Made by a program: the position numbers and the translations under genes | Shown: positions 3,274 through 26,633 of the stretch, one piece after another | Layout of the letters: the number at the start of each line of letters is the position of its first letter | How positions within the stretch are numbered: position 1 is the stretch's first letter | From: Clostridia bacterium | Lineage (GTDB): Bacteria; Bacillota; Clostridia; Oscillospirales; CAG-272 | Length of the DNA: 39,277 bases | Direction of reading: 5' to 3' | Assembly: GCA_017937135.1 (NCBI GenBank) | Contig: JAGBEE010000019.1 | Location: 1-39,277, forward strand | Notes under the pieces: model-generated | Database searches by the model: none | Seen by the model: the letters and a program-made list of their open reading frames with translations, nothing else | Told to the model about the DNA's origin: nothing

Positions 3274-3308
3274 ACTATTTGGCATATTAGTTTATGAAAG
3301 GAATCGTT

Positions 3309-4067: not shown

Positions 4068-4094
4068 TAAAAATAAAATAATTAGCTTTAAATT

Positions 4095-4125
4095 GAGCAG
4101 ACACAAAATGTGTTTGCTCTTTTTA
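4095..4125 (+). terminator. Rho-independent terminator after the cyclophilin gene
   Basis: GAGCAgACACA pairs with TGTGTtTGCTC around a short A-rich loop and is followed directly by TTTTTAT. The next operon's promoter begins three bases later. Confidence 0.85.
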
Positions 4126-4127
4126 TA

Positions 4128-4156
4128 TTGACAAATCAACTCTCATAATATATAAT
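4128..4156 (+). promoter_or_regulatory. Promoter of the large polysaccharide operon
   Basis: Consensus TTGACA (4128-4133), a 17-base spacer and consensus TATAAT (4151-4156). Genes from 4209 to 21692 follow with gaps of 40 bases or less and no obvious internal terminator, so this one strong promoter may serve about 17.5 kb. I see no JUMPstart-like or other antitermination element in the short leader. Confidence 0.88.
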
Positions 4157-4208
4157 AAATATGTATGTGCATTTTTTACGCGCGTTTTTTATACATTCGG
4201 AGGAATAT

Positions 4209-5345
4209 ATGAATAAAAGATTATTACTTTCAACCCCTACTATGCATGGTGAGGAAATGAAATATGTACAGGAGGCATTCGACAAAAACTGGATTGCTCC
4301 CCTTGGCTTTAACTGCGATAATTTCGAAAAGGAAATGGACGAGTATCTTAACAGTGGCATAGATGGACAAGCCTATAATACCTTGGCATTATGCTCTGGC
4401 ACATCAGCATTGCACCTTGCAGTAAAGCTTGCAGGAATAAAGAGTGGAGATATTGTCCTTTGCTCTGATATGACATTTGCAGCAACAGTAAACCCCATTT
4501 CTTATGAGGGTGGTAAGCAGGTTTACATAGACTCGGAAAATGAAACGTGGAATATGGACCCACGCGCGCTTGAAAGGGCGTTTGAGAAATACCCAAACGC
4601 AAAGGCTGTTATGGTAGCGCATCTTTATGGTACTCCGTCAAAAATGGACGAGATTTCTGATATATGTAAAAAACACGGCGCTATCTTAATTGAGGACGCA
4701 GCGGAGTCACTTGGCGCTACATATAAGGGCAGACAAACAGGCACGTTTGGAAGGTATGGAGCTATAAGCTTTAACGGAAATAAAATCATAACAACCTCTG
4801 GTGGTGGTATGCTCATTTGCGATAACAAGGACGATAGAAAATTTGCCTTCAAGCTTGCAACACAGGCAAGAGAAAATGCGCCCTGGTATCAGCACGAGCA
4901 CATAGGCTATAACTACCGTATGTCAAATGTAGTGGCAGGAATTGGCAGAGGACAGCTCTTACACCTTGATGAGCACAGAGAGCTAAAGAAAAAAATATAT
5001 TTTAGATACAAAGAGGGCTTAAAGGGCTTACCCCTTAAAATGAATCCATATCTTGAATATACCGAGCCGAATTTCTGGCTTAGCTGTATCTTGATAGACG
5101 AGGATTGTGACAAGGACCCAATAGAGCTTATGAATAGGCTTAATGAGTATAATATCGAAACTCGCCCTATATGGAAGCCGATGCATATGCAGCCTGTTTT
5201 TAAGGATTGTGATTTTGTATATGTAGAAGAAAATGGTGTTAATGAGCACATCTTTGAAAAAGGACTTTGCTTGCCAAGCGATATAAAGATGACAGAGGAC
5301 GAGCAAAATTTCGTTATAGAAAAAATCAGGGAGTTTTTTAACTAA
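4209..5345 (+). CDS. epsN: DegT/DnrJ sugar aminotransferase (EpsN/PglE-like)
   Basis: This 378-residue PLP sugar aminotransferase should add an amino group at C4 of a nucleotide-linked 4-keto-6-deoxy sugar. LIEDAAESLGA carries the pyridine-binding Asp (D163), and SFNGNKIITTSGGG carries the Schiff-base lysine K192. The start at 4209 is set by GGAGG five bases upstream. With the next two genes it forms the trio EpsN-EpsL-EpsM (PglE-PglC-PglD), which in Bacillus and Campylobacter makes and transfers a bacillosamine-type sugar. The 4,6-dehydratase that would feed it (PglF/EpsC type) is not in the window. The stop overlaps the next start by one base (TAATG). The symbol is by family resemblance. 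Confidence 0.88.
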   Translation: MNKRLLLSTPTMHGEEMKYVQEAFDKNWIAPLGFNCDNFEKEMDEYLNSGIDGQAYNTLALCSGTSALHLAVKLAGIKSGDIVLCSDMTFAATVNPISYEGGKQVYIDSENETWNMDPRALERAFEKYPNAKAVMVAHLYGTPSKMDEISDICKKHGAILIEDAAESLGATYKGRQTGTFGRYGAISFNGNKIITTSGGGMLICDNKDDRKFAFKLATQARENAPWYQHEHIGYNYRMSNVVAGIGRGQLLHLDEHRELKKKIYFRYKEGLKGLPLKMNPYLEYTEPNFWLSCILIDEDCDKDPIELMNRLNEYNIETRPIWKPMHMQPVFKDCDFVYVEENGVNEHIFEKGLCLPSDIKMTEDEQNFVIEKIREFFN

Positions 5346-6100
5346 TGGAAGAATTTATCAAAAATATGACAACAACCTGGTGGGGTATTCTCATTCTTTG
5401 CTTCGTTTGTCTTTGCCTGCTTTTGGTAGTTAGCGCTTTACTTTATAGACAGTTTTTCAAGCGCTTTTACGATATACTTTTAAGTGCTTTGGCTCTTATA
5501 GTATTATCACCAATACTTTTAATACTCATTATCGTTGGTGCGATAGTTATGAAGGGAAATCCATTCTTTACGCAGCTTCGCCCAGGCAAAAACGAGAAAA
5601 TATTCAAGCTAATTAAGTTTAGAACAATGACAAACGCAAGGGACAAGGACGGCAATCTCTTGCCAGACGACAAGCGCCTTACCAAATATGGTAAATTTTT
5701 GCGCTCGACCTCGCTTGATGAGCTCCCCGAAATTATAAACATTTTCATTGGCAATATGTCAATAATCGGACCTCGCCCACTGCTTGTTGAATATTTACCC
5801 TTGTATAACGAGGAGCAAAAGCACAGGCACGATGTGCGCCCGGGACTTACAGGTCTTGCACAGGTGCGCGGAAGAAATTCTATTTCGTGGACACAAAAAT
5901 TCAAAATAGACGTTGAATATGTAAATAAAATAACTCTTTGGCAGGACGTAAAAATTTTCTTTGGAACAATTTTTAGCGTTTTAAAAAGAGATGGTATTTC
6001 ACAAGAGGGAAACGCCACTATGGAGCCTTTTAGAGGCAACGAGGAAATATTAGAAGAAAAAGCAGAAGAAAAAATCGAAGAAAATATCGAAGCGAGATAA
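5345..6100 (+). CDS. epsL: Initiating sugar-phosphate transferase (EpsL/PglC-like)
   Basis: The 251-residue enzyme belongs to the bacterial sugar transferase family (PF02397) and moves a sugar-1-phosphate from UDP to undecaprenyl phosphate, the first membrane step of repeat-unit assembly. An N-terminal membrane helix (14-34) precedes the hydrophobic re-entrant helix (43-69). Core motifs are KFRTM (91-95), the catalytic Asp-Glu pair in SLDELPE (D125, E126) and GPRP (142-145). Next to EpsN- and EpsM-like genes, the likely first sugar is a diacetamido sugar. The extra N-terminal helix and an acidic C-terminal tail of about 20 residues (many Glu) are additions to the minimal PglC form; their role is unknown. 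Confidence 0.92.
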   Translation: MEEFIKNMTTTWWGILILCFVCLCLLLVVSALLYRQFFKRFYDILLSALALIVLSPILLILIIVGAIVMKGNPFFTQLRPGKNEKIFKLIKFRTMTNARDKDGNLLPDDKRLTKYGKFLRSTSLDELPEIINIFIGNMSIIGPRPLLVEYLPLYNEEQKHRHDVRPGLTGLAQVRGRNSISWTQKFKIDVEYVNKITLWQDVKIFFGTIFSVLKRDGISQEGNATMEPFRGNEEILEEKAEEKIEENIEAR

Positions 6101-6103
6101 GAT

Positions 6104-6715
6104 ATGAATAAAAAAATTGTAATTGTAGGCGCAGGTGGACACGCAAGGGTAATTGCTGATATAGTGCGCGCAAGCAATGATATTGTGGTTGGCTTTCTTG
6201 ATGATGCATATGAAAAGGGCGACGCCCTTTATGGCTCACAGATACTTGGTCATACAGACAATTACATAAGCTATAAGGATGAGTGCTATTTTGTTTTGGC
6301 TATTGGAAATAATATCACAAGACAGACGCTGGCTCAAAAAATGAATTGCAGCTGGCACACAGCCATTCATCCAAGCGCGGTAATAAGTCCAAGCGCGCAA
6401 ATCAAAGAGGGCGCAGTAGTAATGCCAGGCGCTGTAATTAACGCAAACGCAGTAATTGGCAAGCATGCTATTGTAAATACCTGTGCTATAGTAGAGCACG
6501 ACTCCGATATAGGAGAGTTTTCACATATTTCACCAAGGTGTACAGTATGTGGCGTAACACGCATTGGAAAACGAGTATGGCTTGGCGCAGGCGCTGTTGT
6601 AATCAATGTTAAAAAAATATGCGACGATGTTATAGTAGGTGCAGGAGCAGTAGTAACAAAAAGCATTGAAGAAGAAGGGACATATGTAGGAGTACCCTGT
6701 AAGAAAATTAAGTAA
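6104..6715 (+). CDS. epsM: Amino-sugar N-acetyltransferase (EpsM/PglD-like)
   Basis: This 203-residue acetyltransferase is of the NeuD/PglD family. A small nucleotide-sugar-binding domain (1-78, with GAGGHARV at 9-16) is followed by a left-handed beta helix of hexapeptide repeats (about 88-200). EHDSDIG (131-137) carries the probable general-base His132, and the tail VGVPCKKIK is typical. It should acetylate the C4 amine made by the EpsN-like enzyme with acetyl-CoA, giving a UDP-diacetamido sugar for the EpsL-like transferase. It starts four bases after the preceding gene. Confidence 0.9.
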   Translation: MNKKIVIVGAGGHARVIADIVRASNDIVVGFLDDAYEKGDALYGSQILGHTDNYISYKDECYFVLAIGNNITRQTLAQKMNCSWHTAIHPSAVISPSAQIKEGAVVMPGAVINANAVIGKHAIVNTCAIVEHDSDIGEFSHISPRCTVCGVTRIGKRVWLGAGAVVINVKKICDDVIVGAGAVVTKSIEEEGTYVGVPCKKIK

Positions 6716-11105: not shown

Positions 11106-12246
11106 AAAAAAGGTGGAAAGAGTAATCTTTATTTCAAATTACTTTAATCACCATCAAAAATCATTTTGCGAGAAAATGTATAAGACACTGGGAAAGAATT
11201 TTATCTTTGTAGAAACAGGCAAAATGAGCGATATGAGAAAAAGCCTTGGCTATGAAATTGAAATACCACCTTATGTTATCTCTGCGCCTGTGGTGCAAAA
11301 AAACCTAAGAGTGGTAATAGACGCAATAAACAAGGCGGACTTAGTTATAGCGGGCACTTGTCCTGATTTTCTAATTAAGGAAAGAATACAACAGGACAAG
11401 CTCACATTTAGATACTCCGAAAGACTTTTTAAGAAAAAAGCAGGCATTTTTAAACGCATTTTTCATCGCATAAAAATGAGAAAATATCCTTGCTCCAAAA
11501 ATACATATATGCTTTGTGCTGGAGCTTATGTAGCACAGGACTATAACAGGCTTGGGCTTTTTAAGGACAAATGCTTTAAGTGGGGATATTTTCCCGAAAC
11601 GAAAAAATATGACGATGTAGATACGCTAATAAGCCAAAAGACGCCAAATTCTATAATTTGGGTTGGAAGACTTATAGATTGGAAGCACCCAGAAACAGCA
11701 ATAGATATAGCAAAAATGCTAAGAGATGACGGCTATAGCTTTCAAATGGAGCTTATAGGTGAAGGTGAGCTTTTAGGAAAAATTAAGGATAGCGTGGTAA
11801 AATATAACCTTGAGGACTGCGTCCATATTCTTGGCTCAATGAAGCCAAGCGAGGTAAGAGAGCATATGGAAAAAAGCCAAATCCATATATTTACCTCGGA
11901 CAGACAAGAGGGCTGGGGAGCAGTATTAAACGAGGCTATGAATAGTGCATGTGTATCTATTGCAAGTAACGTAATAGGCGCAGCACCATTCCTTGTAAAT
12001 AACGAGGAAAATGGCTTTATTTACAAATTTGGAAAAACCAAGGAGCTTTACAAAATAATAAAATTCCTTTTAGACAATAAAGAAAAGACGAGAATGTATG
12101 CAAAAAAGGCATACGAAAAAATAATAAATGAATATAACGGAGAGATAGCAGCAAAGCGAATAATTTCTCTTAGTAATGAATTTTTAAATGGAGAAAAAAT
12201 GCCACAAGCATTTGAAGATGGCATTTGTAGCTTTTTAAATAAATAG
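11098..12246 (+). CDS. GT4-family glycosyltransferase
   Basis: This 382-residue protein has a diverged acceptor half and a clear donor half. WVGRLIDWKHPE marks the start of the C-terminal Rossmann domain, and EGWGAVLNE supplies the EX7E motif (E271, E279). A basic segment near residues 100-130 (KKKAGIFKRIFHRIKMRK) probably contacts the membrane. It starts inside the end of the preceding gene with an eight-base overlap. Specificity cannot be assigned. Confidence 0.8.
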   Translation: MNEKKVERVIFISNYFNHHQKSFCEKMYKTLGKNFIFVETGKMSDMRKSLGYEIEIPPYVISAPVVQKNLRVVIDAINKADLVIAGTCPDFLIKERIQQDKLTFRYSERLFKKKAGIFKRIFHRIKMRKYPCSKNTYMLCAGAYVAQDYNRLGLFKDKCFKWGYFPETKKYDDVDTLISQKTPNSIIWVGRLIDWKHPETAIDIAKMLRDDGYSFQMELIGEGELLGKIKDSVVKYNLEDCVHILGSMKPSEVREHMEKSQIHIFTSDRQEGWGAVLNEAMNSACVSIASNVIGAAPFLVNNEENGFIYKFGKTKELYKIIKFLLDNKEKTRMYAKKAYEKIINEYNGEIAAKRIISLSNEFLNGEKMPQAFEDGICSFLNK

Positions 12247-12260
12247 AAAAAGAGGCAAAT

Positions 12261-13445
12261 ATGAAAATAGTACATATAGCACCAAATTCTCCCTACAATG
12301 ATTATTGGGGTTATCAGGATAATTTGTTGCCAAAATATCAAAAAAAATTAGGGCATGAAGTAACTATAATTGTTCCTAATCTTATGCACGAGAATGGAAG
12401 TATTGTGCAGACAAATTGCGCTGATTATAGACTAAATGATGGCGTTAGAGTTATTCGTTTAAGCAGGGTGAAACGCTTTTCAAATATATTAACAACGCTC
12501 AGCTCCAAGCTCGATGTGTATGAGCTGTTAAAGGAGCTTAAACCTGATTTTATATTTTTTCACGGACTTGTAAGTGATACAATATTTGATGCTATAAAAT
12601 ACAAAAATAACATAAATCAAAAATGCGTTATAGTTCAGGACAACCATTTAGATTATAATATAGGCTTTGACCCTAAAACCTTAAAGGGAAGGATTCTTAG
12701 AGCATATTATCGCAGGAAGAATAAAAAAAGTATATCTTATGTTGATAAGGTATATGGGGTTACTCCATGGAGAAAGCAATATGCCAAGGATTTTTTTGGC
12801 ATTCCTGACGAAAAGCTCGACGTACTAATAATGGGAGCAGATGATGAAAAAATAGATTTTTCGAATAGAGAGGAAATAAGAAATAAAATACGTGAGCAAA
12901 ACAATATATCAGGAAATGAATTTTTAATAGTTACAGGCGGCAAAATCGATTTAAAGAAAAAAATTCATATTTTGATGAAGGCATGCTCTAATCTTGAAAG
13001 TGTTAAATTGTTAGTGTTTGGCAATGTAAATGATGATGTAAAGAATGAGTTCGAGGATATATTGAAATCAAGCACAAACATCGTATATGTTGGTTGGATA
13101 GATTCAGAAAAGGTGTACGATTACTTTTTTGCAGCAGACCTTGTGTTTTTTCCAGGTCAACACTCGGTTTTGTGGGAGCAAGCTTGTGCATCTAAGGTGC
13201 CTTGCGTATTTGAGCGTTGGGAAAAGATGGAGCATATTAATAATGGCGGAAACAGTGATTTTGTTTCTCCTGTAACAGAAGAGACTATAAAAGAAAAAAT
13301 TCAAGAGCTGCACAATACAGAAAAATATGAGAAGATGAAGAGTGTGGCTTTCTCTGAAAAAACAGATATATATTTGTATAGCAATATAGCAAAAAAATCA
13401 CTTGAATGTGTAAAAACAGAAAATGAAATGGAGATGAACAAATGA
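12261..13445 (+). CDS. GT4-like glycosyltransferase with altered EX7E motif
   Basis: This 394-residue protein resembles GT4 enzymes: [19 protein letters not shown] at the start, then [14 protein letters not shown] (donor-domain opening, about 223-236). In the usual EX7E place the sequence reads [10 protein letters not shown], so the second Glu is kept (E306) and the first is Pro298. The first Glu normally helps position the donor sugar, so this may be a subgroup variant or a weakened enzyme. The gene ends with an ATGA overlap into the dehydrogenase gene. Base composition looks AT-rich, like its neighbours. Confidence 0.75.
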
Positions 13446-14626
13446 AAATAGCAGTTGCTGGAACAGGATATGTAGGACTTTCAATGGCAACGCTCTTGTC
13501 GCAAAACAACGAGGTTGTGGCAGTTGATATATTGCCTGAAAAGGTTGATTTAATAAATAAAAGAATATCTCCTATTCAAGATAAGGAAATAGAGGAATTT
13601 TTCTTAGAAAAAGAATTAAACCTCATTGCTACATTGGATGAAGAAAATGCATACAAAAATGCAGAGTTTGTAATTGTAGCTGCGCCTACCAATTATGATA
13701 CAGATAGAAATTTTTTTAATACAAGCGCCGTAGAGGCTGTAATCAATTCTGTATTGAAATATAACAAGGATGCTATTATAGTAATAAAATCTACAATTCC
13801 GGTTGGCTATACAGAACAAATTAGGAAACGAACTGGAAGTGAAAATATCATATTTAGCCCTGAGTTCCTGCGCGAGAGCAAGGCGCTTTATGACAATCTA
13901 TATCCGTCAAGAATAGTAGTTGGAACTGATTTGAAAAACGAAAGGCTTGTAAATAAAGCAAAGGAATTTGCACAGCTTTTGAAGGATGGTGCAATAAAAG
14001 AGAATATTAAAACCTTAATAATGGGTTTTACAGAAGCAGAGGCGGTAAAGCTTTTTGCCAATACATATTTGGCATTAAGAGTTTCTTATTTTAATGAGCT
14101 TGATACATATGCTGAGCTAAAGGGCTTGGATACGAAAAAAATAATTGATGGTGTTTGTCTTGATCCAAGAATAGGAGATCATTATAATAATCCTTCATTT
14201 GGATATGGTGGATATTGTCTGCCTAAGGATACAAAGCAGCTCTTAGCAAATTATGCGGACGTTCCTCAAAATCTTATACAAGCAATAGTTGATTCTAATA
14301 GGACACGTAAGGATTTTATAGCAGAGCAAATACTTGCAAAAAAACCTAAAACCGTTGGAATATATAGGTTGACAATGAAATCGAATAGTGATAATTTCCG
14401 TCAGTCATCTATCCAAGGAGTTATGAAAAGAATAAAGGCAAGAGACGTTGAAATTATAATATATGAGCCAACAATGAAAAAGACAGAATTCTTTGGCAAT
14501 CGCGTGGTTAACGATTTGAATGAATTTAAACACGTATCCGATATAATTATAGCAAATCGTAGAAATGATGAGCTTAATGATGTATCGGATAAGGTTTACA
14601 CAAGGGATTTGTACACAAGAGATTAA
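13442..14626 (+). CDS. ugd: UDP-glucose 6-dehydrogenase
   Basis: This 394-residue NAD-dependent enzyme oxidises UDP-glucose twice to UDP-glucuronic acid. It has the GTGYVGLS nucleotide loop (7-14), [12 protein letters not shown] (138-149), the catalytic lysine region [12 protein letters not shown] (K203) and the catalytic cysteine C259 in [14 protein letters not shown]. Its length matches the short bacterial Ugd class. This puts an acidic sugar in the polymer. UDP-ManNAc or UDP-Gal dehydrogenation is possible but less likely from the motifs. The tail shows a 15-base imperfect tandem repeat (14597-14626) coding YTRD twice. Confidence 0.88.
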
Positions 14627-15600: not shown

Positions 15601-18330
15601 TTGAATTCAAAAAATGTATCAAAAGCCTTAGGCTGGAAGCTACTTGAGCGCTTTGGTGTGTCTGGCGCACAGTTTATACTGCAAATAATTCTTGCGAGAA
15701 TACTCTCCCCTGAGCATTATGGAGTGCTTTCCATAATGATTATATTTACAACGTTGGCTAATGTTTTTGTGCAAAGTGGGTTTAGTACAGCACTTATACA
15801 GAAAAAAGACGTAACCAAGGATGATTATTCGTCAGTATTTTGGGTAACGCTCGGCGTAGCAGGAATACTGTATGCTATAATTTTTCTCACAGCACCATTG
15901 ATAGCAAGCTTTTATGAAATGCCTGAAATAGTAGCCCCCTTTAGAGTATTGGCTCTTATGCTTTTTCCGGGCGCATTTAATTCCATTCAGCTTGCAAAGG
16001 TAAGTAGAGAGCTGAACTTTAAAAAGGTGTTTGTTAGCAACCTTGGTGCCATATTCATATCAGGTGTAGCTGGTATAGTGATTGCTTTAAACGGTGGAGG
16101 AATTTGGGCTCTTGTGGCACAAAGCCTACTAAATGTATTCGTTGCGTGCATAGTAATGCTTTTTACCGTTAGATTCGTACCAAAATTTGTATGTAATATA
16201 AAAAGAGTAGGTGCTTTATTTTCATTCGGTTGGAAACTGCTCGTTTCAGGCTTGATAGATACACTGTATCAGGATTTAAGAAGTCTTGTAATAGGAAAAA
16301 AATATGACAGCTCAACTCTTGGCTACTACAATAGAGGAAAACAATTTCCTCAATTTATCACAAATGCGATAAATGGTGCTGTACAGAGTGTAATGCTTCC
16401 TGCACTTTCAAGAGAGCAGGATGACAGAGCAAAGGCAAAGGCTCTTATGCGTAACTCTATTTCCGTCAGCTCCTACATAATTCTTCCAATGATGGCTGGG
16501 CTTGCTGCGGTGGCGGCTCCACTTATTACAGTTCTTTTGACTGAAAAATGGCTTCTTGCAGTTCCATATATGATGATATATTGCTTTACATTTGCGTTTC
16601 TTCCAATACATAGCTGTAATTTGCAGGCAATAAATGCAATGGGCAGAAGTGATATATTTTTAAGACTTGAAATCATAAAAAAGACCATAGGAATAGGCGC
16701 GCTTGTTATTGCTGTATTTTGCTTTGATAGTCCGATTGCAATAGCTGCAACTGGAATAATAACAACCGTAACAAGTAGCTTTATAAATGCGTATCCAAAC
16801 AAAAAGCTAATAGGGTATTCGTATTTTGAGCAAATAAAGGATATTTTACCATCGCTTCTTATGTCGGGCGCGATGTTTGCATTAGTATTCCTTTTTGGTA
16901 AAATAAATCTTGGTAGCTCTTTACTGACGCTTGTTTTGCAGGTTATCATTGGACTGGTAATCTATCTTTTGCTCTCCTTAATAATAAGACCAGCTCCCTT
17001 CAAGTTTTTAGTTTCACAGGCTAAAAATGCAATAAAAAATAGAGGAAAAAGCAAGGAAAACGGATTGCAGACCGAACAAGCAAGTGATGAGGAAACAAAC
17101 AACGAAAACAACGGAGAAAAATCAATGAAAAAAATATTACTCCTTGGTGGCTCGGCCCAACAGGTAATAGCAATACAAACTGCAAAAAATCTTGGCTATT
17201 ATACCGTTCTTTGTGACTACTTACCAGATAATCCGGGACAATATGAGGCTGACAAATTTTATCAGGTGAGTACAACGGATAAGGACGCAATTTTAGAGGT
17301 TGCAAAAAATGAAAAAATAGATGGCATTTTGGCATACGCCTCTGACCCTGCTGCCCCAACTAGCGCATATGTAGCAGAAAAAATGGGTCTTGCAGGCTGT
17401 CCTTATGAGTCAGTAGAAATACTTTGTAATAAGGACAAATTTAGAAGATTCCTTGCCGAAAACGGCTTTTGCACTCCGAGGGCAAAGGGGTATAGCGAAC
17501 TCGAGGATGCAATTAGCGATATTAAAAATGGCGAATTTAAAATGCCTGTTATCGTAAAACCAACTGATTCCTCGGGAAGCAAGGGCGTTGGGCGTATAGA
17601 TAATATAGACGAGGCCGAGGAGAAATTAGAGTATGCTATGTCATTTTCTCGTGGCAAGAAAATAATCGTTGAGGAATATGTTGAGAAATTCGGTTATCAA
17701 ATAGCAGGAGATGGTCTTAGCGTTGATGGCAAGCTTGTATTTAGATATTTTGCAAACGACCATTTTAATCCAAAATGTGTAAATCCGTTTGTGCCTATTA
17801 GCGCAAGCTTCCCTTACAATATGCCAAGCAAGGTTCAAGACAAGGTACATAATGAAATACAGCGCTTGATTACACTTCTTGGTATGACAAATACAACCTA
17901 TAATTTTGATATGCGTATTGATAAGGACTATAATGTTTATCTTATGGAAATCGCTCCACGCGATGGTGGCAACTACATACCACAAATTATAAAATACGCA
18001 ACAGGTGTTGACTTGGTTGAATATTCCGTACGCTGTGCAATGGGAGAAAAAATAGATTGTGACAGCTTTGGTGCGCCAAGTGGTTATTATGCTTACTACG
18101 CAGTGCATAGCTTGAAGGACGGAATACTTGACAGAGTTAAAATCAATGAGGACGTAATTAAAAATAATATAGTAGAAAATCACATTTTAGTAAAAGAGGG
18201 CGACGAAATTCACGCCTTTACAGGGGCAAATACAACTCTTGGAATTTTACTTATGAGATTTGATAGTATGGAACAAATGCTTCATATGATGGACAACTCA
18301 CACGAGTGGATAGAGGTTATTTTAAAGTAA
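15601..18330 (+). CDS. Wzx-type flippase fused to an ATP-grasp ligase
   Basis: This single frame of 909 codons holds two proteins that are normally separate. Residues 1-480 are a polysaccharide flippase of the MOP superfamily, rich in membrane helices and starting KALGWKLLERFGVSGAQF. Residues 481-508 are a charged linker rich in Glu and Asn. Residues 509-909 are an ATP-grasp ligase with the N-terminal domain LLLGGSAQQVIAIQTAK, the ATP loop VKPTDSSGSKGVG (about 650-662) and the metal-binding EIAPRDGGN (783-791). The start is TTG at 15601 with GGGGGAG five bases upstream. A well-placed ribosome site before Met509 could also give a free ligase. A direct fusion of these families is unusual; a lost stop codon or a sequencing error are alternatives. 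Confidence 0.85.
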   Translation: MNSKNVSKALGWKLLERFGVSGAQFILQIILARILSPEHYGVLSIMIIFTTLANVFVQSGFSTALIQKKDVTKDDYSSVFWVTLGVAGILYAIIFLTAPLIASFYEMPEIVAPFRVLALMLFPGAFNSIQLAKVSRELNFKKVFVSNLGAIFISGVAGIVIALNGGGIWALVAQSLLNVFVACIVMLFTVRFVPKFVCNIKRVGALFSFGWKLLVSGLIDTLYQDLRSLVIGKKYDSSTLGYYNRGKQFPQFITNAINGAVQSVMLPALSREQDDRAKAKALMRNSISVSSYIILPMMAGLAAVAAPLITVLLTEKWLLAVPYMMIYCFTFAFLPIHSCNLQAINAMGRSDIFLRLEIIKKTIGIGALVIAVFCFDSPIAIAATGIITTVTSSFINAYPNKKLIGYSYFEQIKDILPSLLMSGAMFALVFLFGKINLGSSLLTLVLQVIIGLVIYLLLSLIIRPAPFKFLVSQAKNAIKNRGKSKENGLQTEQASDEETNNENNGEKSMKKILLLGGSAQQVIAIQTAKNLGYYTVLCDYLPDNPGQYEADKFYQVSTTDKDAILEVAKNEKIDGILAYASDPAAPTSAYVAEKMGLAGCPYESVEILCNKDKFRRFLAENGFCTPRAKGYSELEDAISDIKNGEFKMPVIVKPTDSSGSKGVGRIDNIDEAEEKLEYAMSFSRGKKIIVEEYVEKFGYQIAGDGLSVDGKLVFRYFANDHFNPKCVNPFVPISASFPYNMPSKVQDKVHNEIQRLITLLGMTNTTYNFDMRIDKDYNVYLMEIAPRDGGNYIPQIIKYATGVDLVEYSVRCAMGEKIDCDSFGAPSGYYAYYAVHSLKDGILDRVKINEDVIKNNIVENHILVKEGDEIHAFTGANTTLGILLMRFDSMEQMLHMMDNSHEWIEVILK
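17113..17127 (+). promoter_or_regulatory. Internal ribosome site and ATG before the ATP-grasp half
   Basis: GGAG (17113-17116) lies eight bases before an in-frame ATG (17125-17127) exactly where the ATP-grasp domain begins (MKKILLLGGSAQ). It is as good as ribosome sites of ordinary genes in this operon. It suggests either a relic of two former genes or a second, shorter product of 401 residues. Confidence 0.6.
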
Positions 18331-18339
18331 GGAAAAAAT

Positions 18340-19293
18340 ATGAAAGAAATCGGTGGATATTTTGGGCTTGAACAGCTTATAAAAAATGAATATTACAAGG
18401 ATTTAATAGCTCTTAACAGTGCAAGAAATGCACTTGTATATATTCTTGAAGCGAGAAAAATCAAAAAGCTATATATTCCTTATTTTCTATGCGATTCAGT
18501 CGCAGGCGCTTTAGAAAAAGAGGGGTATAAATACGAATATTATCATATTGATAAGACGTTTTTGCCAGCTTTTGACAAAAGGCTTGATAAGGATGAGTAT
18601 TTGTATATTGTCAATTATTATGGGCAAATAGACAAGGAAAGAATAATAGAGCTTAAAAATCGCTATGGCAATATTATTCTTGATAATGTACAAGCCTTTT
18701 TCCAAGAGCCGATTTTGGGAATAGATACAATTTATTCATTAAGAAAGTTTTTTGGAGTCCCTGATGGTGCGTACCTTTATTGTGATGCTTCGCTTGACAA
18801 GGAAATACCTACGGATGCTTCAATGAATAGAATGAAGCATATTTTAGGCAGATATGAGGGAGAAAGCGCATCTTTATACTATTCTGATTTCAAGGCGAAT
18901 GATGCCTCCTTTAAAGAAGAGCCACTAAAATACATGTCGCCCCTCACCCACAACATTCTTGGCGCAATAGATTACGAGGGCGCAAGGAAAACAAGAGAAG
19001 AAAATTACAAGCATCTTGAAAAGGAGCTTGGAAAAATAAACAAATTAGATTTTAAAATGCCCAAGGGACCATATGCGTATCCTTTCTATTGTGAAAATGG
19101 AATGGAGATAAAGAAACGCCTTGCAGAGAAGAAAATATTCGTAGCAACCCTTTGGCCAAATGTGTTGAATATGAATGGTACTCTTGAAAAGGATTTAGCC
19201 GAAAACATTTTACCCCTTCCTGTTGACCAAAGATATAACGATGAAGATATGCACAAAGTAGTTTTGGAGGTTTTGTCATGCTTGAAAAATTAA
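18340..19293 (+). CDS. Divergent DegT-like PLP enzyme of unknown substrate
   Basis: The 317-residue protein has the outline of an aspartate-aminotransferase-fold enzyme but is shorter than typical DegT sugar aminotransferases (about 370). Likely cofactor residues are visible: LNSARNAL (25-32) for the phosphate, IILDNVQ (112-118) with the pyridine Asp115, and SLRKFFGVPDGAY (133-145) with a candidate Schiff-base K136. It sits between two ATP-grasp ligases and overlaps the second by 16 bases, so the three are probably made together. It may make the amino acid or amino sugar that the ligases join. I do not recognise a characterised relative, so the substrate is open. Confidence 0.6.
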   Translation: MKEIGGYFGLEQLIKNEYYKDLIALNSARNALVYILEARKIKKLYIPYFLCDSVAGALEKEGYKYEYYHIDKTFLPAFDKRLDKDEYLYIVNYYGQIDKERIIELKNRYGNIILDNVQAFFQEPILGIDTIYSLRKFFGVPDGAYLYCDASLDKEIPTDASMNRMKHILGRYEGESASLYYSDFKANDASFKEEPLKYMSPLTHNILGAIDYEGARKTREENYKHLEKELGKINKLDFKMPKGPYAYPFYCENGMEIKKRLAEKKIFVATLWPNVLNMNGTLEKDLAENILPLPVDQRYNDEDMHKVVLEVLSCLKN

Positions 19294-20552
19294 GTGGGAA
19301 AAGGCTTTTGGTTTTGGGTGGAGTTATCCAAATGGTAGAAGTAGTAAAATTGGCGAAGACCTACGGAATTGAGGTTTTAGTAACTGATTATTTGGAAAAT
19401 TCTCCGGCTAAGAAATATGCAGATAAGTCCTTTATGGTTAGCGCAACGGACGTTGACGGTGTCGTTGAGCTTTGTAAAAGCGAGAAAGTCGATGGTATAG
19501 TTACAGGATACGTTGATTTGCTATTGCCATATTATGCGCAGATATGCGAAAAAGCAGGGCTTCCATGCTATGGTAGCTTTGAAATATTTAATATTATGAC
19601 GGATAAAAAGCTTTTTAAAAAGCTCTGCCGTGATAATAATGTGCCTACAATTAAAGAATGGACAACAAAAGAGGTTGAAAATAATCAAGGCATAGAATAT
19701 CCGGTTATTGTAAAGCCGACGGATTCCAGCGGCTCAAGAGGAATAAGTGTGTGCAATAATTATTCTGAGCTGCTTAATGGAATAGAAAAGGCATTACAAT
19801 TTTCTCCAAGCAAGCAATATATAGTAGAAAAATATATGACGGGAAAAGAGGTAGTATTATACTACTATTTTCAAGATGGCAATCCAATATTTATGGGAAT
19901 GTGCGACCGATATGTATGTAAAGAACAAGCAGGAGTCGCACAGCTGCCGATAGCGTATGTTTTTCCATCAAAATATACAGATTCGCATCTGAGAAATACA
20001 GATTGTGCGATAAAACAAATGTTCAAGAATATCGGTGTGAAAAACGGAACAATGTTTTTGCAGGCGTTTATAGAGGACGATATAGTGTATGTTTACGAGC
20101 CGGGATACCGTTTAAATGGAGCGCGTGAGCAATATGTTTTTGGACCTATAAATGATGCTTATGCAACAAAAATGCTGATACATTTTGCATTGACAGGAAA
20201 GATGCACACCGAATCCTTGTCCCAAAAATGCGATCCATATATTTGTGGCAAGCACGCGTGCGTTCTATCACCTGTTTTGAAAACGGGTAGGGTTGATAAA
20301 ATAATTGGCTTGGACTATATGAAAAGCAATCCGTGCATTTTTAATATTGCAATTACAAATGACGTAAATTCCGTTGTATCGAACAAGGAAATAGGAACGT
20401 TACGTCAGCTTGCTTACAGAAATGCAATCATCGCCGATACAAAGGAAGAGTTGATAAATGTAATCAACGACGTGCAAAGAAATGTTGACTGGCTTGATGA
20501 AGAGGGTAATTCGTTAATGCTTAGACAATTTTCAACTGATGAATTAGAATAA
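19278..20552 (+). CDS. Second ATP-grasp ligase
   Basis: This 424-residue ATP-grasp protein has the same plan as the flippase-linked copy. It has a Rossmann-like N-domain (LLVLGGVIQMVEVVK, 10-24), the ATP loop VKPTDSSGSRGIS (145-157) and the metal site EPGYRLNG (E274, N280). Such enzymes activate a carboxylate as acyl phosphate and join it to an amine or thiol. The shared VKPTDSSGS motif implies that the two arose by duplication, but the metal-site motifs differ, so substrates probably differ too. It starts 16 bases inside the upstream PLP gene. In a polysaccharide operon, the best guess is amide linkage of an amino acid or small acid to an amino sugar. Confidence 0.82.
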   Translation: MLEKLSGKRLLVLGGVIQMVEVVKLAKTYGIEVLVTDYLENSPAKKYADKSFMVSATDVDGVVELCKSEKVDGIVTGYVDLLLPYYAQICEKAGLPCYGSFEIFNIMTDKKLFKKLCRDNNVPTIKEWTTKEVENNQGIEYPVIVKPTDSSGSRGISVCNNYSELLNGIEKALQFSPSKQYIVEKYMTGKEVVLYYYFQDGNPIFMGMCDRYVCKEQAGVAQLPIAYVFPSKYTDSHLRNTDCAIKQMFKNIGVKNGTMFLQAFIEDDIVYVYEPGYRLNGAREQYVFGPINDAYATKMLIHFALTGKMHTESLSQKCDPYICGKHACVLSPVLKTGRVDKIIGLDYMKSNPCIFNIAITNDVNSVVSNKEIGTLRQLAYRNAIIADTKEELINVINDVQRNVDWLDEEGNSLMLRQFSTDELE

Positions 20553-20591
20553 AAATGTCCAAATATATCAACAAAGCAAGGGTAGGGTATT

Positions 20592-21692
20592 ATGAAAATA
20601 AATGTAACTCGATCCTCAATGCCCTCGTTTGAGGAGTATTGTGAGGAAATAAAGGATTTATGGGAAAGCCATTGGCTTACCAATATGGGCGCAAAGCACA
20701 AGCAGCTTGAAGCAAATTTAAAGGAGTATTTAAACACTCAAAACGTAATTTTATATACAAACGGGCATTTGGCGCTTGAAAATATAATTACGGCGATGAA
20801 TTTTCCTAAGGGTAGTGGGGTAATAACAACGCCCTTCACCTTCGTGTCAACCACGCACGCAATAGTAAGAAATGGCTTAGTGCCTGTTTTCTGCGATATA
20901 AACGACAAGGACTATACGATAGATGCAAGTAAAATAGAGTCGCTTATAACTGAAAAAACCGTAGCTATTGTGCCTGTGCACGTATATGGAAATATGTGCG
21001 ATGTTGAAAAAATAGAAGAAATAGCTACCAAGCACGGCTTGAAGGTTATATATGATGCAGCGCATGCCTTTGGCGTAAAATACAAGGGAATTAGCTCGGC
21101 AAACTTTGGAGATGCATCAATGTTTAGCTTCCACGCAACTAAGGTGTTTAATACTATTGAGGGTGGTGCAGTGACCTTCAAGGATGAAAAGCTTGCAAGG
21201 CTTTTAAACGATATGAAGAATTTTGGTATAAGAGGCCCTGAGAGCGTTGCATACATAGGTGGAAACGCCAAAATGAGCGAATTTCAAGCAGCAATGGGCA
21301 TTTGCAACCTAAGACATATTGACGAAGAAATACAAAAGCGTAAAAACGCAACACAAAAATATCGCGCGCTTCTTGGTGGCATAAAAGGAATAAAGCTAAC
21401 CTGTGAGCAAGAGGACGTAATTTCAAACTATGCTTATTTCCCCGTTGTTTTTGACGGGTATAAATACACAAGAGATGAGATTTTTGATATGCTAAGGGAA
21501 AACGATATAGTAGCAAGAAAATATTTCTATCCGTTAACAAACGAAATAGAGTGCTATAAGGATTTCCCGAGCGCAAATGTAAAGGATACACCAGTAGCAA
21601 AGTATATAGCAGACAGGGTTTTAACCTTACCGCTTTATGCTGATTTATCAAGTAGTGATATAGAGAGAATTTGCAAAATAATACTAAGCTAA
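20592..21692 (+). CDS. Sugar aminotransferase, VioA-like (DegT family)
   Basis: This 366-residue PLP enzyme resembles VioA, which makes dTDP-4-amino-4,6-dideoxy-D-glucose. Features are WLTNMGAKHKQLE (28-40), IYDAAHAFG (D155) and the Schiff-base lysine K184 in SFHATKVFNTIEGG. It would supply a free 4-amino group. Unlike the first operon end there is no acetyltransferase next to it, but two ATP-grasp ligases are, which fits a different acyl group on that amine. The dTDP-glucose synthase and dehydratase that VioA needs are not in the window. Another 4-keto sugar substrate is possible. Last gene before a strong terminator. Confidence 0.85.
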   Translation: MKINVTRSSMPSFEEYCEEIKDLWESHWLTNMGAKHKQLEANLKEYLNTQNVILYTNGHLALENIITAMNFPKGSGVITTPFTFVSTTHAIVRNGLVPVFCDINDKDYTIDASKIESLITEKTVAIVPVHVYGNMCDVEKIEEIATKHGLKVIYDAAHAFGVKYKGISSANFGDASMFSFHATKVFNTIEGGAVTFKDEKLARLLNDMKNFGIRGPESVAYIGGNAKMSEFQAAMGICNLRHIDEEIQKRKNATQKYRALLGGIKGIKLTCEQEDVISNYAYFPVVFDGYKYTRDEIFDMLRENDIVARKYFYPLTNEIECYKDFPSANVKDTPVAKYIADRVLTLPLYADLSSSDIERICKIILS

Positions 21693-21727
21693 TAAAGGCT
21701 GAGCCAAGAGCTCAGCTTTTATTTTTT
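21693..21727 (+). terminator. Terminator of the large polysaccharide operon
   Basis: GCTGAGC and GCTCAGC pair around a five-base loop, with flanking A-T pairs, followed by TTTTATTTTTT. It closes the 15-gene operon. Confidence 0.88.
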
Positions 21728-21802
21728 GCTTTTCTGTATGCTTTTTAAAATATGAGAAAAAATAATAAAAAATAACAAAAAAGTCGGGGGAGTGTGCAAT
21801 TT

Positions 21803-22999
21803 TTGGTAAAAACAGAAAACAAAAATATACTAAAGCAGCTGCTTTTGGAGTGCAAGGGAATTGAAGAAGAAATTATAAAGCACAGGCGCGCCCTGCATCA
21901 AATGGCAGAGGTAGGGTTTGAGCTTGAAAGAACATATAGCTATGTTTTTTCAGCACTTGAGGAAATTGGATTAACACCAAAAAGGTGTGGTAAATGTGGG
22001 ATAGAATGCTCTATATGGGGCGATAAAGCCGACAAGGATACCAAGTGCATACTTTTACGTGCTGATATGGATGCTTTGCCCATAAAAGAGGAAACAAGCC
22101 TTGAATTTAAAAGCGATAGCAAATATATGCACGCCTGTGGACACGATATGCACACAGCTATGCTCCTTGGATGTGCTAAAATTTTATATAATCACAGGGA
22201 CAAGCTACACAATAATATTAAGCTTGCTTTTCAGCCTGCTGAGGAAAGCCTAATGGGCGCTAAGGATATGATAGAAAATGGTGTTCTTGAAAATCCGAGG
22301 GTCGATTATGCCTTTATGCTCCACGTTCTAACGGGAGAAAACATCGACACGGGTACGATAATAATGTCAAAAAGTGAAGTCAGCGCGCCATATGCAACAA
22401 TGCTTGAAATAAAATTAGAGGGTAAGGGCGCTCATGGCGCAATGCCCGAAAAGGGAGTAAATCCAATTTACCCAATATCTAAAATTGCAGTAGCCATAAA
22501 GGAACTAAATGATAGTGCAAGGGATATAACCGTCACTCTTGGACAAATAAATGCTGGTGAAACAGCTAACGTAGTGCCTGAAATAGCAATTTGCAAGGGT
22601 AGTCTACGCGCAATGAATGCTGAGCGTGCGACGTGGGCAGAGGAGCATGTAAAAAGTATCGCTTTAAGGATATCAAAAGAGGAAAAGGTTCAGGGGAGTG
22701 TCGATTTTTACTCAAGCTGCCCGTGTCTTTTAAACGACAAAGAGCTTGCTAAAAATGCGCAGAAGGCTCTTTGCCAATCACTTGGAGAGAAGCACGTTAC
22801 TTTGCTTGATAGTGGGGGAGGAGGCGGCTCGGAGGATTTTGCATATATAAGCCACCGAGTACCATCACTTATGCTTGCAATAGGTGCAGGAAAAAAGGAT
22901 AATGGCTACATTTATCCACTGCACAATCCTAAAGCGATGTTCGATGAAAAAGCGCTTGCTTATGGTGCTTGTGCTTACGCCACCCTTGCATTTATGTAA
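21803..22999 (+). CDS. M20-family amidohydrolase (metallopeptidase)
   Basis: The protein of about 398 residues belongs to the M20D group (hippurate or N-acyl-amino-acid amidohydrolases). HRRALHQMAE near the N-terminus, the metal-site motif MHACGHDMHTAM, QPAEES and LDSGGGGGSEDF near the C-terminus are all present. Family members remove an acyl group from an N-acylated amino acid, or split small peptides, in the cytoplasm. A GTG at 21794 touches the GGGGGAG ribosome site, so the TTG at 21803, ten bases downstream of it, is more likely. It lies between two polysaccharide operons but has its own terminator; a link to them is only suggestive. Confidence 0.85.
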   Translation: MVKTENKNILKQLLLECKGIEEEIIKHRRALHQMAEVGFELERTYSYVFSALEEIGLTPKRCGKCGIECSIWGDKADKDTKCILLRADMDALPIKEETSLEFKSDSKYMHACGHDMHTAMLLGCAKILYNHRDKLHNNIKLAFQPAEESLMGAKDMIENGVLENPRVDYAFMLHVLTGENIDTGTIIMSKSEVSAPYATMLEIKLEGKGAHGAMPEKGVNPIYPISKIAVAIKELNDSARDITVTLGQINAGETANVVPEIAICKGSLRAMNAERATWAEEHVKSIALRISKEEKVQGSVDFYSSCPCLLNDKELAKNAQKALCQSLGEKHVTLLDSGGGGGSEDFAYISHRVPSLMLAIGAGKKDNGYIYPLHNPKAMFDEKALAYGACAYATLAFM

Positions 23000-23114: not shown

Positions 23115-23150
23115 ATAATAGTTATAGTGTGCAAAAAAGAGGTGTGTAAA

Positions 23151-24206
23151 ATGAAAGAATCAATTTTCAAGGGTAAAACCCTAATGATAACAGGAGGAAC
23201 AGGCTCCTTTGGAAACGCTGTTCTTAACAGATTTTTAAATACCGACATTGGAGAAATAAGAGTTTTTTCTCGCGATGAGAAAAAACAAGACGATATGCGC
23301 CACGAGTTCCAAGCGAAAATGCCTGAGGTGGCAGAAAAAATTAAATTCTATATTGGAGACGTAAGGGATATTGCAAGCGTTAGAAACGCTATGCACGGCG
23401 TTGATTACATATTCCATGCAGCAGCTCTTAAGCAGGTGCCATCTTGCGAATTTTTCCCAATGGAGGCAGTTAAAACAAATGTTATTGGAACTGACAACGT
23501 TCTTACTGCTGCAATTGATGAGGGAGTAAAGACGATTATTTGTTTATCAACCGACAAGGCTGCGTATCCTGTAAACGCTATGGGTACGTCAAAGGCAATG
23601 ATGGAGAAGGTTATCGTTGCAAAATCAAGAACTGTATCTCCAGAAAAAACAAAGATTTGTTGCACACGCTATGGCAACGTAATGTGTAGCCGTGGCTCAG
23701 TAATTCCTCTTTGGATAGACCAAATAAGAGCTGGAAAGCCAATTACAATTACCGACCCATCTATGACAAGATTTATTATGTCACTTGATGAGGCGGTTGA
23801 CCTTGTTCTTTTCGCATTCGAGCACGGAACAAGTGGTGATATACTCGTTCAAAAGGCACCAGCTTGTACAATTGAAACACAGGCAAGGGCTGTAATGGAG
23901 CTTTTTGACAAGGAAAACAAGAGCGAAATAAAGGTTATCGGTATTCGTCACGGTGAGAAAATGTACGAAACACTTCTCACTAACGAGGAATGTGCAAACG
24001 CTATTGATATGGGCAACTTCTATCGTGTGCCCTGTGACAAGCGAGGACTTAACTACGATAAGTACTTCAAAGATGGAGATGTTGAGCGCAACACCCTAAT
24101 GGAATTTAATTCTAATAACACTGAGCTTCTTAGTGTAGAGGCTGTCAAGGAAAAGCTTCTTAGCCTTGCATACATAAGAGAAGAGCTTGAAAAGGAAGGA
24201 AAATAA
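23151..24206 (+). CDS. capE: UDP-GlcNAc 4,6-dehydratase/epimerase (CapE/FnlA-like)
   Basis: This 351-residue SDR enzyme should perform the first step to UDP-N-acetyl-L-fucosamine, dehydrating UDP-GlcNAc with epimerisation. GGTGSFG (15-21) binds the cofactor, STDKAAYP (133-140) has K136, and the usual YxxxK is MGTSK (M144, K148). Met in place of the catalytic Tyr is typical of the CapE/FnlA group and separates it from FlaA1/PglF-type dehydratases. AGAGG eight bases before the ATG at 23151 fixes the start; an upstream GTG would include the ribosome site. Its stop overlaps the next start by one base (TAATG). Confidence 0.92.
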   Translation: MKESIFKGKTLMITGGTGSFGNAVLNRFLNTDIGEIRVFSRDEKKQDDMRHEFQAKMPEVAEKIKFYIGDVRDIASVRNAMHGVDYIFHAAALKQVPSCEFFPMEAVKTNVIGTDNVLTAAIDEGVKTIICLSTDKAAYPVNAMGTSKAMMEKVIVAKSRTVSPEKTKICCTRYGNVMCSRGSVIPLWIDQIRAGKPITITDPSMTRFIMSLDEAVDLVLFAFEHGTSGDILVQKAPACTIETQARAVMELFDKENKSEIKVIGIRHGEKMYETLLTNEECANAIDMGNFYRVPCDKRGLNYDKYFKDGDVERNTLMEFNSNNTELLSVEAVKEKLLSLAYIREELEKEGK

Positions 24207-25378
24207 TGCTGTCCAGCTTTGAAAGAGGAACGATTTCTCTAATAAAGAGTGCGCTTTCAAACACGTGTGCTAAGATACCTGAGGACTATGATTTTAATAA
24301 AGCATATGAGCTTTCTGTAGCTCAGCAAATTGTGCCAATCATTTATTATGGTGCGCTTGGAGTAGAGGGCTTTGATAAGCTTGAAATATCAAAAAAATTC
24401 TTGCTTGCAACAGCAAAGCTGACCACGTATTCGGCAAATCAGCTTGATTTAATTGAAGAAGTTTTTAAGTCATTTAATCAAAATGGAATAGATCACTTAA
24501 AGCTCAAGGGTACGGTTCTTAAAAGAATGTACCCATATCCCGAGATGCGTATGATGAGCGATGCAGATATTCTTATCAAGGAAGACCAATACGCAAAAAT
24601 AGAAAAAATAATGCTTGATTTGGGCTTTGAAAAAGCATATGAGAGCGACCACGAGCTTGCTTGGAGAAAAAACGGCTTTTTAATAGAGCTGCACAGGCGC
24701 TTGATGCCCTCTTATACAGAGGATTATCATAGCTATTATGGCGATGGCTGGGACAAGCTCGAAAAATATGGTGAGCAGGGCTTTGAGTATAGAATGAATC
24801 CAAATGATGAGCTCATATATAACTTCACTCATTTTGCAAGACACTATCGCGATGGTGGAGTTGGAATAAAATTTATGACTGACTTCTATGTTTTTCTTGA
24901 AAAGCATAGGGAGCTTGATATGAATTACATTGAAAACGAGCTTGAAAAAATGGAGCTAACAAGATTTTGGCAAAACACTAAAAAGCTAATAAATGTGTGG
25001 TTCTACGATGAGGAAAGTGATGAGATTAGCGATTTTATAACCGCTAAAATATTTGCTTCTGACACATATGGCACACATCTTGGAAAGCTTGAGGCGGAGG
25101 CTGCGCGCTTGTCACAGGGTGGCGGAAGCAAGGCGGTTAAGAAAAAGAAATTTTGGAATGCTGCATTTCCTAATTTTACAACTATGAAAATCTTATATCC
25201 TGTTCTAAAAAAGGTGCCAATTCTTTTACCCTTTATGTGGATATGGCGCATAATAGATAGGTTGATTTTCAAAAGGAAAAAGGTAAAGATACAAACCGTT
25301 AGCGATGAGGCTATAGATAGGTATAATTTAGAGCTTGACTATGTCGGCTTGCCATATGGCTTTAAATCGAAGGTATAA
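24206..25378 (+). CDS. Nucleotidyltransferase-fold protein of unknown role
   Basis: This 390-residue protein resembles the uncharacterised nucleotidyltransferase family PF14907. The core KLKGTVLKRMYPYPEMR (99-115) is followed by SDADIL (D119, D121), the metal-binding Asp pair, and IELHRR with a third acidic residue (E161). The C-terminal third is helical and ends with a basic segment. It is translationally coupled to the capE-like gene and sits 42 bases before capF, splitting an otherwise standard capE-capF-capG set. It may nucleotidylate a sugar, lipid or protein partner in the pathway; no substrate can be assigned. Confidence 0.72.
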   Translation: MLSSFERGTISLIKSALSNTCAKIPEDYDFNKAYELSVAQQIVPIIYYGALGVEGFDKLEISKKFLLATAKLTTYSANQLDLIEEVFKSFNQNGIDHLKLKGTVLKRMYPYPEMRMMSDADILIKEDQYAKIEKIMLDLGFEKAYESDHELAWRKNGFLIELHRRLMPSYTEDYHSYYGDGWDKLEKYGEQGFEYRMNPNDELIYNFTHFARHYRDGGVGIKFMTDFYVFLEKHRELDMNYIENELEKMELTRFWQNTKKLINVWFYDEESDEISDFITAKIFASDTYGTHLGKLEAEAARLSQGGGSKAVKKKKFWNAAFPNFTTMKILYPVLKKVPILLPFMWIWRIIDRLIFKRKKVKIQTVSDEAIDRYNLELDYVGLPYGFKSKV

Positions 25379-25420
25379 TGAAAAACGCTTAGACGTATAC
25401 GATTTTCGAGGAAAAATAAA

Positions 25421-26617: not shown

Positions 26618-26633
26618 TAGATAGGAGAAATAA

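Follow-up and report, generated by a model that had tools for sequence, protein, structure and literature searches.

To our knowledge, amino sugars substituted with amino acids are known chemically from bacterial polysaccharides, and the enzymes that attach those amino acids are largely unassigned. Among the described systems, the wzx-vioA-vioB genes of Escherichia coli O7 lead to the acetylated 4-amino sugar Qui4NAc; there, vioA follows the flippase gene and rfbA/rfbB lie in the cluster. Here we analyze a four-gene cassette from a Clostridia bacterium (CAG-272; GCA_017937135.1, contig JAGBEE010000019.1), in which a 47% relative of O7 VioA follows a flippase but is not accompanied by VioB, and is instead adjoined by two ATP-grasp ligases (GRASP1 and GRASP2) and a divergent protein of the pyridoxal phosphate (PLP) type, PLPx. 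The window is the whole contig, 39,277 bases in length (G000:C26). In our assessment, the cassette quite probably makes the 4-amino sugar of a capsule repeat unit and acylates it with carboxylic acids, likeliest amino acids, which would replace the acetyl cap. We conclude from sequence comparison that the ligases would join amino acids, or other acids, to the 4-amine of Qui4N as amides.

Other described systems share parts of this design. Linked peptide ligases and GNATs making successive ligations, including for O-antigen, have already been proposed (in a passage of PMC4431377 that credits earlier work), and the ATP-grasp/GNAT peptide-ligase neighborhoods described there for O-antigen and teichuronopeptide have in common with the present cassette the idea of successive ligations with a possible GNAT cap. 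The GRASP1 family has a significant profile match to the L-amino acid ligase BL00235 (3vot) and to BacD, and 3vot shares its E-x-(A/G)-x-R motif, but unlike them GRASP1 is found in capsule operons with VioA, scores below the curated cut-offs, and presumably has a sugar amine as its acceptor. MprF depends on tRNA for its donor. Its folds differ from those of the cassette and its acceptor is a lipid, but it offers an analogy, and only that, since one chain modifies with an amino acid and flips, MprF making and flipping lysyl-phosphatidylglycerol (PMC6299216). No publication describing this cassette appeared among the matches listed in searches on ATP-grasp ligases and on capsule or O-antigen aminoacylation, which left most subscription journals outside. 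The components of the cassette, in gene order Wzx::GRASP1, PLPx, GRASP2, VioA and terminator, are as follows:

15601..17124, + strand: Wzx flippase half of a long frame (PF13440 Polysacc_synt_3, 1.8e-94, residues 30-322)
17125..18330, + strand: GRASP1, ATP-grasp ligase half of the same frame (ATP-grasp_4; solved chains 4dim, 1.7e-51, and 3vot, 7e-31)
18340..19293, + strand: PLPx, 317 residues, invariant Asp115/Lys136, profile likeness to the VioA family
19278..20552, + strand: GRASP2, second ATP-grasp ligase, with a PylC-like N domain (ATP-grasp, 1e-12)
20592..21692, + strand: VioA, probable dTDP-4-keto-6-deoxyglucose 4-aminotransferase, making Qui4N (PF01041, 1.4e-98)
21691..21723, + strand: intrinsic terminator closing the operon (14-bp hairpin, -18.6 kcal/mol, z -3.85), at the VioA stop codon

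An initial annotation, made from the sequence alone, had recognized these four open reading frames as a flippase joined to an ATP-grasp ligase, a divergent PLP enzyme, a second ATP-grasp ligase and a VioA-like protein, and the domain matches agree with it. The tight overlap that it described holds for PLPx and GRASP2 (16 nucleotides) but not for the remaining junctions, which have gaps of 9 and 39 nucleotides.

Aligned with its E. coli O7 counterpart, VioA shows 47% identity over 365 positions (E 9e-121, 342 bits); it reaches 182 bits with its best solved chain, 2po3, and matches PF01041 (DegT) with 330.9 bits against a cut-off of 19.8. The NCBIfam sugar aminotransferase models listed for it or for the E. 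coli protein were all below cut-off. That VioA makes dTDP-Qui4N is strongly supported by these comparisons. Genes for RmlB and RmlA occur on another contig of the same genome (G000:C42; 507.8 and 486.2 bits, both above cut-off). A VioB orthologue was not found in this draft genome (1.85 Mb, 42 contigs, 93.7% complete), the best match being 27.6 bits over 68 residues, and the suggestion that no acetyltransferase serves the amine made by VioA is borne out to that extent. The NeuD-family acetyltransferase encoded at 6104-6715 aligns with E. coli VioB at 29 bits over 53 residues.

GRASP1 and GRASP2 are homologous to one another (hhalign 100%, E 9e-56), and both exceed the ATP-grasp_4 cut-off of 27 (37.3 and 48.4 bits). 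The best solved match of both is 4dim, deposited as a phosphoribosylglycinamide synthetase. For GRASP1 the second is BL00235, aligned over positions 61-396 of 399, and the alanine-anticapsin ligase BacD (3vmm, 3wnz, 3wo1) matches at 5e-13 to 1e-12; for GRASP2, carboxylases and carbamoyl-phosphate synthase rank above 3vot. GRASP1 did not pass the curated L-amino acid ligase models (LAL_C2, 18.4 against 29.4 bits; BacD, 34 against 850), and neither ligase passed the PylC model TIGR03909 (GRASP2 59.1, GRASP1 30.7, cut-off 248.3), while GRASP2 passes PF21360 PylC-like_N (32.5 bits, cut-off 27). Members of PF14397 (ATPgrasp_ST) co-occur in some of the same operons (our loci L033, L034, L029 and L102), but GRASP1 and GRASP2 do not belong to that family, with 15.6 bits against a cut-off of 31.4 for GRASP1 and no match at E 0.01 for GRASP2. 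Both ligases were said to have complete ATP loops and metal sites; the ATP loop is indeed kept in both, but the metal sites are only partly complete. GRASP1 keeps D262 and E275, and GRASP2 has an acid at 274 with Gln262 replacing the first acid, a replacement that is invariant in 13 of 13 sequences.

PLPx has no Pfam match at E 0.01, PF01041 included, and no NCBIfam match at E 0.001. Its Asp115 and Lys136 are invariant in all 26 sequences compared, and profile alignment over nearly the full length sets them against their VioA-family counterparts, likewise Asp and Lys. In that comparison hhalign gives 71.4% (E 3.6e-5) for the 26-member profile and 12.9% (E 0.0022) for a narrower one of 22 members. 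L021, which encodes a distant PLPx relative, gives a DegT match at E 0.0089, below cut-off. Because of this collinearity and the L021 match, PLPx is probably a very divergent DegT-like, fold-type-I PLP enzyme.

To follow PLPx beyond the window, we used one pattern-based search of 84,980 species genomes, which returned 24 loci; gene content was scored uniformly within the fetched stretches, some of which end at contig ends. Labels of these loci include Oscillospiraceae, Ruminococcus, Lachnospiraceae, Synergistales/Synergistaceae, Spirochaetaceae and Bacilli, and an animal source is named for 15 (counting ‘Lapin’ as rabbit). Related cassettes recur in other bacteria, mostly of the gut. GRASP1 is present in 19 of the 24 and lies immediately upstream of PLPx in 16. 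VioA is found in 20, GRASP2 in 11, RmlA together with RmlB in 12, a GNAT in eight and a same-strand solute transporter in seven. The loci lacking GRASP1 are L030, whose contig stops 1.3 kb from PLPx, L035, which breaks off at PLPx, and L040, L044 and L045; those lacking VioA are L030, L031 (a 3.5-kb contig), L041 and L046. VioA scores are at least 599 bits with the exception of L034 (461), L043 (379) and L044 (357), the last of which has its VioA ~10 kb from PLPx. L028, from Ruminococcaceae bacterium P7, has the order GRASP1-PLPx-GNAT-VioA. Loci added by the order and phylum draws described below include Wzx-GRASP1-PLPx-GNAT-VioA-AcylT3-RmlA-RmlB (L164), GRASP1-PLPx with VioA (L168), GRASP1-PLPx with GRASP2 and DctM (L163), WbqC-PLPx with a weaker PLPx of 231 bits (L166), and a GRASP::PLPx fusion (L167). 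Conservation of the neighborhood had been proposed as a check on the cassette, and the objection that it is not conserved elsewhere fails, with GRASP1 and PLPx recurring side by side and occurring as fusions. Recurrence in differently labelled organisms argues that the arrangement is not due to chance.

Within the family, PLPx matches 12 of 295 genomes at E 0.001: three with at least 48% identity (the window, G273 and G125), five that are GRASP::PLPx fusions with 32-37% identity, and four whose matches are weaker. At E 1e-30 it matches 9 of 394 order genomes and 2 of 398 phylum genomes, the window being counted in both. Such sporadic spread is as expected of an exchanged cassette.

The association between ligases and VioA also appears where PLPx is left aside. 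VioA (E 1e-100 or better) occurs in 14 of the 295 family genomes, and 11 of those 14 have an ATP-grasp in the VioA locus. Among 33 Wzx homologues (E 1e-80) from 32 family genomes, VioA exceeds 500 bits at nine loci, a 125-bit relative in L130 being left out of the count; an ATP-grasp is found at eight of these nine and at one of the 24 without VioA (L140, 93 bits), giving a Fisher p of 5.6e-6, uncorrected for kinship and with some loci cut by contig ends. Since the window contributes to the GRASP and VioA profiles, we also counted with it left out, which gives 7 of 8 and 1 of 24. Four transporter families sought at the same loci occur at five of nine with VioA and at none of 24 without it, a control biased by queries drawn from cassette loci, with GltS coming from L015 itself and DctM from a fusion locus. 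The claim that the amine is capped by acids through the ligases is supported by the adjacency of GRASP1 and PLPx, by ATP-grasps tracking VioA and not the uronate pathway, by the amino-acid-type enzymes, GNATs and transporters that adjoin the ligases in some relatives, and by the lack of VioB. In all six GRASP::PLPx fusion loci the fusion lies beside an EpsN-type 4-aminotransferase, which suggests that PLPx goes with acylation and not with one particular sugar. No NeuD/VioB-type acetyltransferase above 25 bits was found in these six loci, GNATs not being excluded; the EpsN of the window, unlike them, has an acetyltransferase of this type alongside.

Enzymes and transporters that could act on the acid vary from locus to locus. 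L101 has a class-I aminotransferase directly before GRASP1, with VioA present and PLPx absent. OCD/alanine-dehydrogenase-type genes occur in L102 and L032, an octopine dehydrogenase in L035, a ketopantoate-reductase (ApbA) type in L025, and MmgE/PrpD in L106. Among transporters there are an amino acid permease (L032), a Glt symporter (GltS, L015), SSF (L036), CitMHS (L024, L026 and L037; L106 by similarity), and DctM, which is paired with a small membrane protein (L100 by Pfam; L034, L046, L109, L110 and L163 by similarity). These varying neighbors are tools to make, alter or import amino or organic acids, and would suit ligases that depend on one specific acid, though many loci carry none of them. 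The L037 gene at 12202-13146 is probably an SDR and not of the ApbA type, to judge from family and similarity labels.

The small DctM partner is a protein of 84-120 residues, two-helix by eye (L017 12163-12438; L100 9393-9755), with like genes in L109, L110, L034, L046 and L163 and one on the opposite strand in L033; the one member tested had no Pfam match. L035 also encodes a 631-residue protein (3299-5194), cobalamin-mutase-like by eye, beside octopine dehydrogenase and VioA. It has no Pfam or NCBIfam match, and a 174-bit relative lies in the 19572 region of L037.

Building on the VioA relationship, the rml supply, the ligase domains and the conserved linkage, all of which can be read from the sequences, we propose a pathway in which RmlA/RmlB would supply dTDP-4-keto-6-deoxyglucose and VioA would transaminate it to dTDP-Qui4N. 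PLPx may provide or alter the amino acid used by GRASP1, which would form an acyl phosphate and join the acid to the 4-amine of dTDP-Qui4N or of a lipid-linked unit. GRASP2 would then attach a second amino or other acid, and in some relatives a GNAT adjoining PLPx may cap the amino acid. Wzx would flip the decorated unit, and ligation would occur at the membrane if the Wzx::GRASP1 frame is real. What we infer is which acid is used, at which stage it is attached, which of the two ligases acts first, and that PLPx makes the acid. A passage of PMC3210612 lists Qui4N with N-acetylglycyl, N-acetyl-D-alanyl and N-(3-hydroxybutyryl)-L-alanyl groups, and such N-acylaminoacyl groups fit a two-step build. 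The cassette would thereby name candidate attachment enzymes and tie them to one sugar, Qui4N; it would also assign to this step the WbqC family and a PLP-type family that Pfam does not model. It occurs in metagenome-assembled genomes labelled Clostridia and, by way of PLPx, in Synergistales/Synergistaceae, Spirochaetaceae and Bacilli, and it could explain a family of surface structures. A broader proposal, which we regard as doubtful, is that this is a widespread modular capsule decoration, in which a flippase-tethered ATP-grasp would aminoacylate the lipid-linked unit at export and an exchangeable acid-supply slot would set the acid of each strain. That slot might hold amino-acid-making enzymes, the new PLP family, or dedicated carboxylate or amino acid importers.

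Several observations weigh against acylation of Qui4N by the cassette. The same passage of PMC3210612 also lists Qui4N with formyl, acetyl or no N-substituent. ATP-grasp is missing from 3 of the 14 VioA loci (L103, L104, which has WbqC, and L105). The GRASP1 profile (E 1e-40) matches 32 of the 295 family genomes, VioA 14, and both 11; because 21 GRASP1-profile genomes have no VioA, five of them being the EpsN-linked fusion genomes, these ligases also work without it. Amino-acid-type enzymes are absent at most loci, 3 of 24 having a gene labelled as OCD, octopine dehydrogenase or ApbA, and the L101 aminotransferase precedes GRASP1 and does not take the exact place of PLPx. L165 holds PLPx without any labelled partner, and among nine same-genus genomes only that of the window has PLPx, G212 having VioA with other ATP-grasps. 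The usual Asn metal ligand of the E-x-N motif is Ala or Gly in GRASP1 and GRASP2 (EIAPR, EPGYR), and the solved ligase 3vot aligns with a like motif, EVGAR. A profile search of the PDB returned no solved relative of PLPx (best E 0.084, unrelated proteins), and PLPx could be a second sugar aminotransferase. Finally, the pairwise distances among PLPx, GRASP1 and VioA agree weakly over 18 loci (r 0.21, 0.34 and 0.14; permutation p 0.012, 0.026 and 0.052), taking the best-scoring GRASP1 gene per locus; since the members seem reshuffled yet occur together, we favor function over shared descent.

The joined flippase and ligase require separate consideration. Positions 15601-18330 form a single frame of 909 residues, with Wzx at 1-508 (Polysacc_synt_3, 316.7 bits, passing the cut-off of 23) and the ATP-grasp at 509-909 (ATP-grasp_4, 2.7e-9, residues 647-791). 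Codon 509 is an ATG at 17125 behind the ribosome-binding-site-like sequence GGAGAAAAATCA, for which reason GRASP1 may also be made alone from this internal start. It is a real possibility, though we put it at somewhat below an even chance, that the fusion reflects stop loss or an assembly error, or that the frame gives two products. Besides the internal start, this would suit a window that is one contig of a draft genome, and relatives that carry separate Wzx genes: in the ten compared, Wzx closes with its own stop and is followed by GRASP1 in eight cases, by VioA in L034 and by WbqC in L045. Against an artefact, the only frames longer than 522 codons among the 33 Wzx homologues are those of the window (918 codons) and of G212 (647), a sister species in the same genus, where Wzx runs on into a GNAT without a start ATG. 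There the nearest in-frame ATG is 23 codons upstream with no evident ribosome-binding site, and TTG codons lie just inside. The G212 gene belongs to the same capsule locus, as judged by capE-capF-wecB, and stands ahead of two ATP-grasps, DctM, VioA and RmlA/RmlB. That a single genus has this flippase fused to two unlike enzymes makes pure error less likely.

Turning to the cassette as a whole, we think it unlikely that PLPx is a sugar aminotransferase making a second amine, of a diamino or 3-amino sugar, with the two ligases acylating two amines. The likeness of PLPx to a distant member of the DegT sugar aminotransferase family would fit, but PLPx keeps its ATP-grasp where the adjoining aminotransferase is EpsN-type and not VioA; L101 has GRASP1, VioA and an amino-acid-type class-I aminotransferase without PLPx; and no GRASP2 was seen at 13 of the 24 loci with PLPx, although contig ends truncate some of these. 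It is more improbable still that GRASP1, PLPx and GRASP2 make an unrelated, hitch-hiking small peptide, the VioA product being acetylated by the NeuD-family enzyme or left free. BacD yields a free dipeptide, some genomes that lack VioA nevertheless have genes of the GRASP1 type, and a NeuD/PglB/VioB-family acetyltransferase is encoded in the same operon; but that acetyltransferase adjoins EpsN and the initiating transferase, its VioB match is the short one given above, and the link between VioA and ATP-grasp persists in 11 of 14 genomes despite varying partners. Amides of glucuronic and galacturonic acid are known. Amidation of a hexuronic acid carboxyl by the ligases, attaching an amine or amino acid, would suit carboxylate-activating ATP-grasps and the UDP-glucose dehydrogenase (UGD) of the operon (13442-14626; TIGR03026, 324.5 bits, passing 189.8; NF011631, 606.5, short of 757), but we consider it very improbable and dropped it after a co-occurrence test. 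Of the 24 PLPx loci, just two have UGD above 300 bits, in one case on the opposite strand. Across the 33 Wzx loci UGD showed no link to ATP-grasp, occurring at 1 of the 9 that have the ligase and at 5 of the 24 that lack it (Fisher p 1.0); there VioA tracks the ligases instead. Acylation of the 4-amine of Qui4N remains our preferred reading.

WbqC-family genes (PF08889) lie directly before PLPx in L040 (4846-5556), L045 (9270-10013) and L031 (1671-2381), the first two being without GRASP1, and near VioA in L104 (9766-10485); the family model confirmed L040 and L104, and L045 and L031 were assigned by similarity. WbqC may do a job equivalent to the ligase step. We take wbqC to be part of an E. 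coli cluster associated with N-acetylglycyl-Qui4N, and the WbqC DNA had no relative among E. coli genomes at blastn sensitivity. In L043 (7528-9992), two tandem GRASP1 genes precede PLPx; next come the gene of a 953-residue protein that matches methyltransferases weakly and a gene of the radical SAM type. A thymidylate-kinase-like gene, with a P-loop by eye, lies immediately upstream of VioA in L025 (6043-6702), L032 (6859-7608) and L038 (5906-6580), and perhaps supplies dTTP for dTDP-sugars.

The other end of the operon is marked by two features:

4128..4156, + strand: consensus sigma-A type promoter of the capsule operon (TTGACA-17-TATAAT), 12 of 12 positions matching
4161..6715, + strand: EpsN/LegC-type aminotransferase, polyprenyl sugar-phosphate transferase and NeuD/PglB/VioB-family acetyltransferase, by family models

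With this promoter and the strong terminator at 21691-21723, the cassette is the 3' end of a ~17.6 kb capsule operon; the promoter call is a consensus match alone, 80 such sites being found against 72 expected, of which that at 4128-4156 is the sole 12/12 site. The genes at 4161-6715 are the probable makers of the start sugar (EPS_sugtrans 2.3e-65 and LegC-family aminotransferase 9.6e-102, both below cut-off; acetyltransferase TIGR03570, 217 bits, above the cut-off of 160.8). Directly behind the operon, an M20 amidohydrolase (21794-22999; TIGR01891, above cut-off) stands alone between two terminator-like hairpins. It was rejected as a cassette partner, lying beyond the terminator and having no labelled counterpart in the sister locus L100. 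The genes at 23127-27818, named by eye, are capE-like (FnlA/PseB-type by family model), one for a 390-residue protein with no NCBIfam match at E 1e-20, capF-like and wecB-like, and the sister species likewise has them next to its capsule locus (L100).

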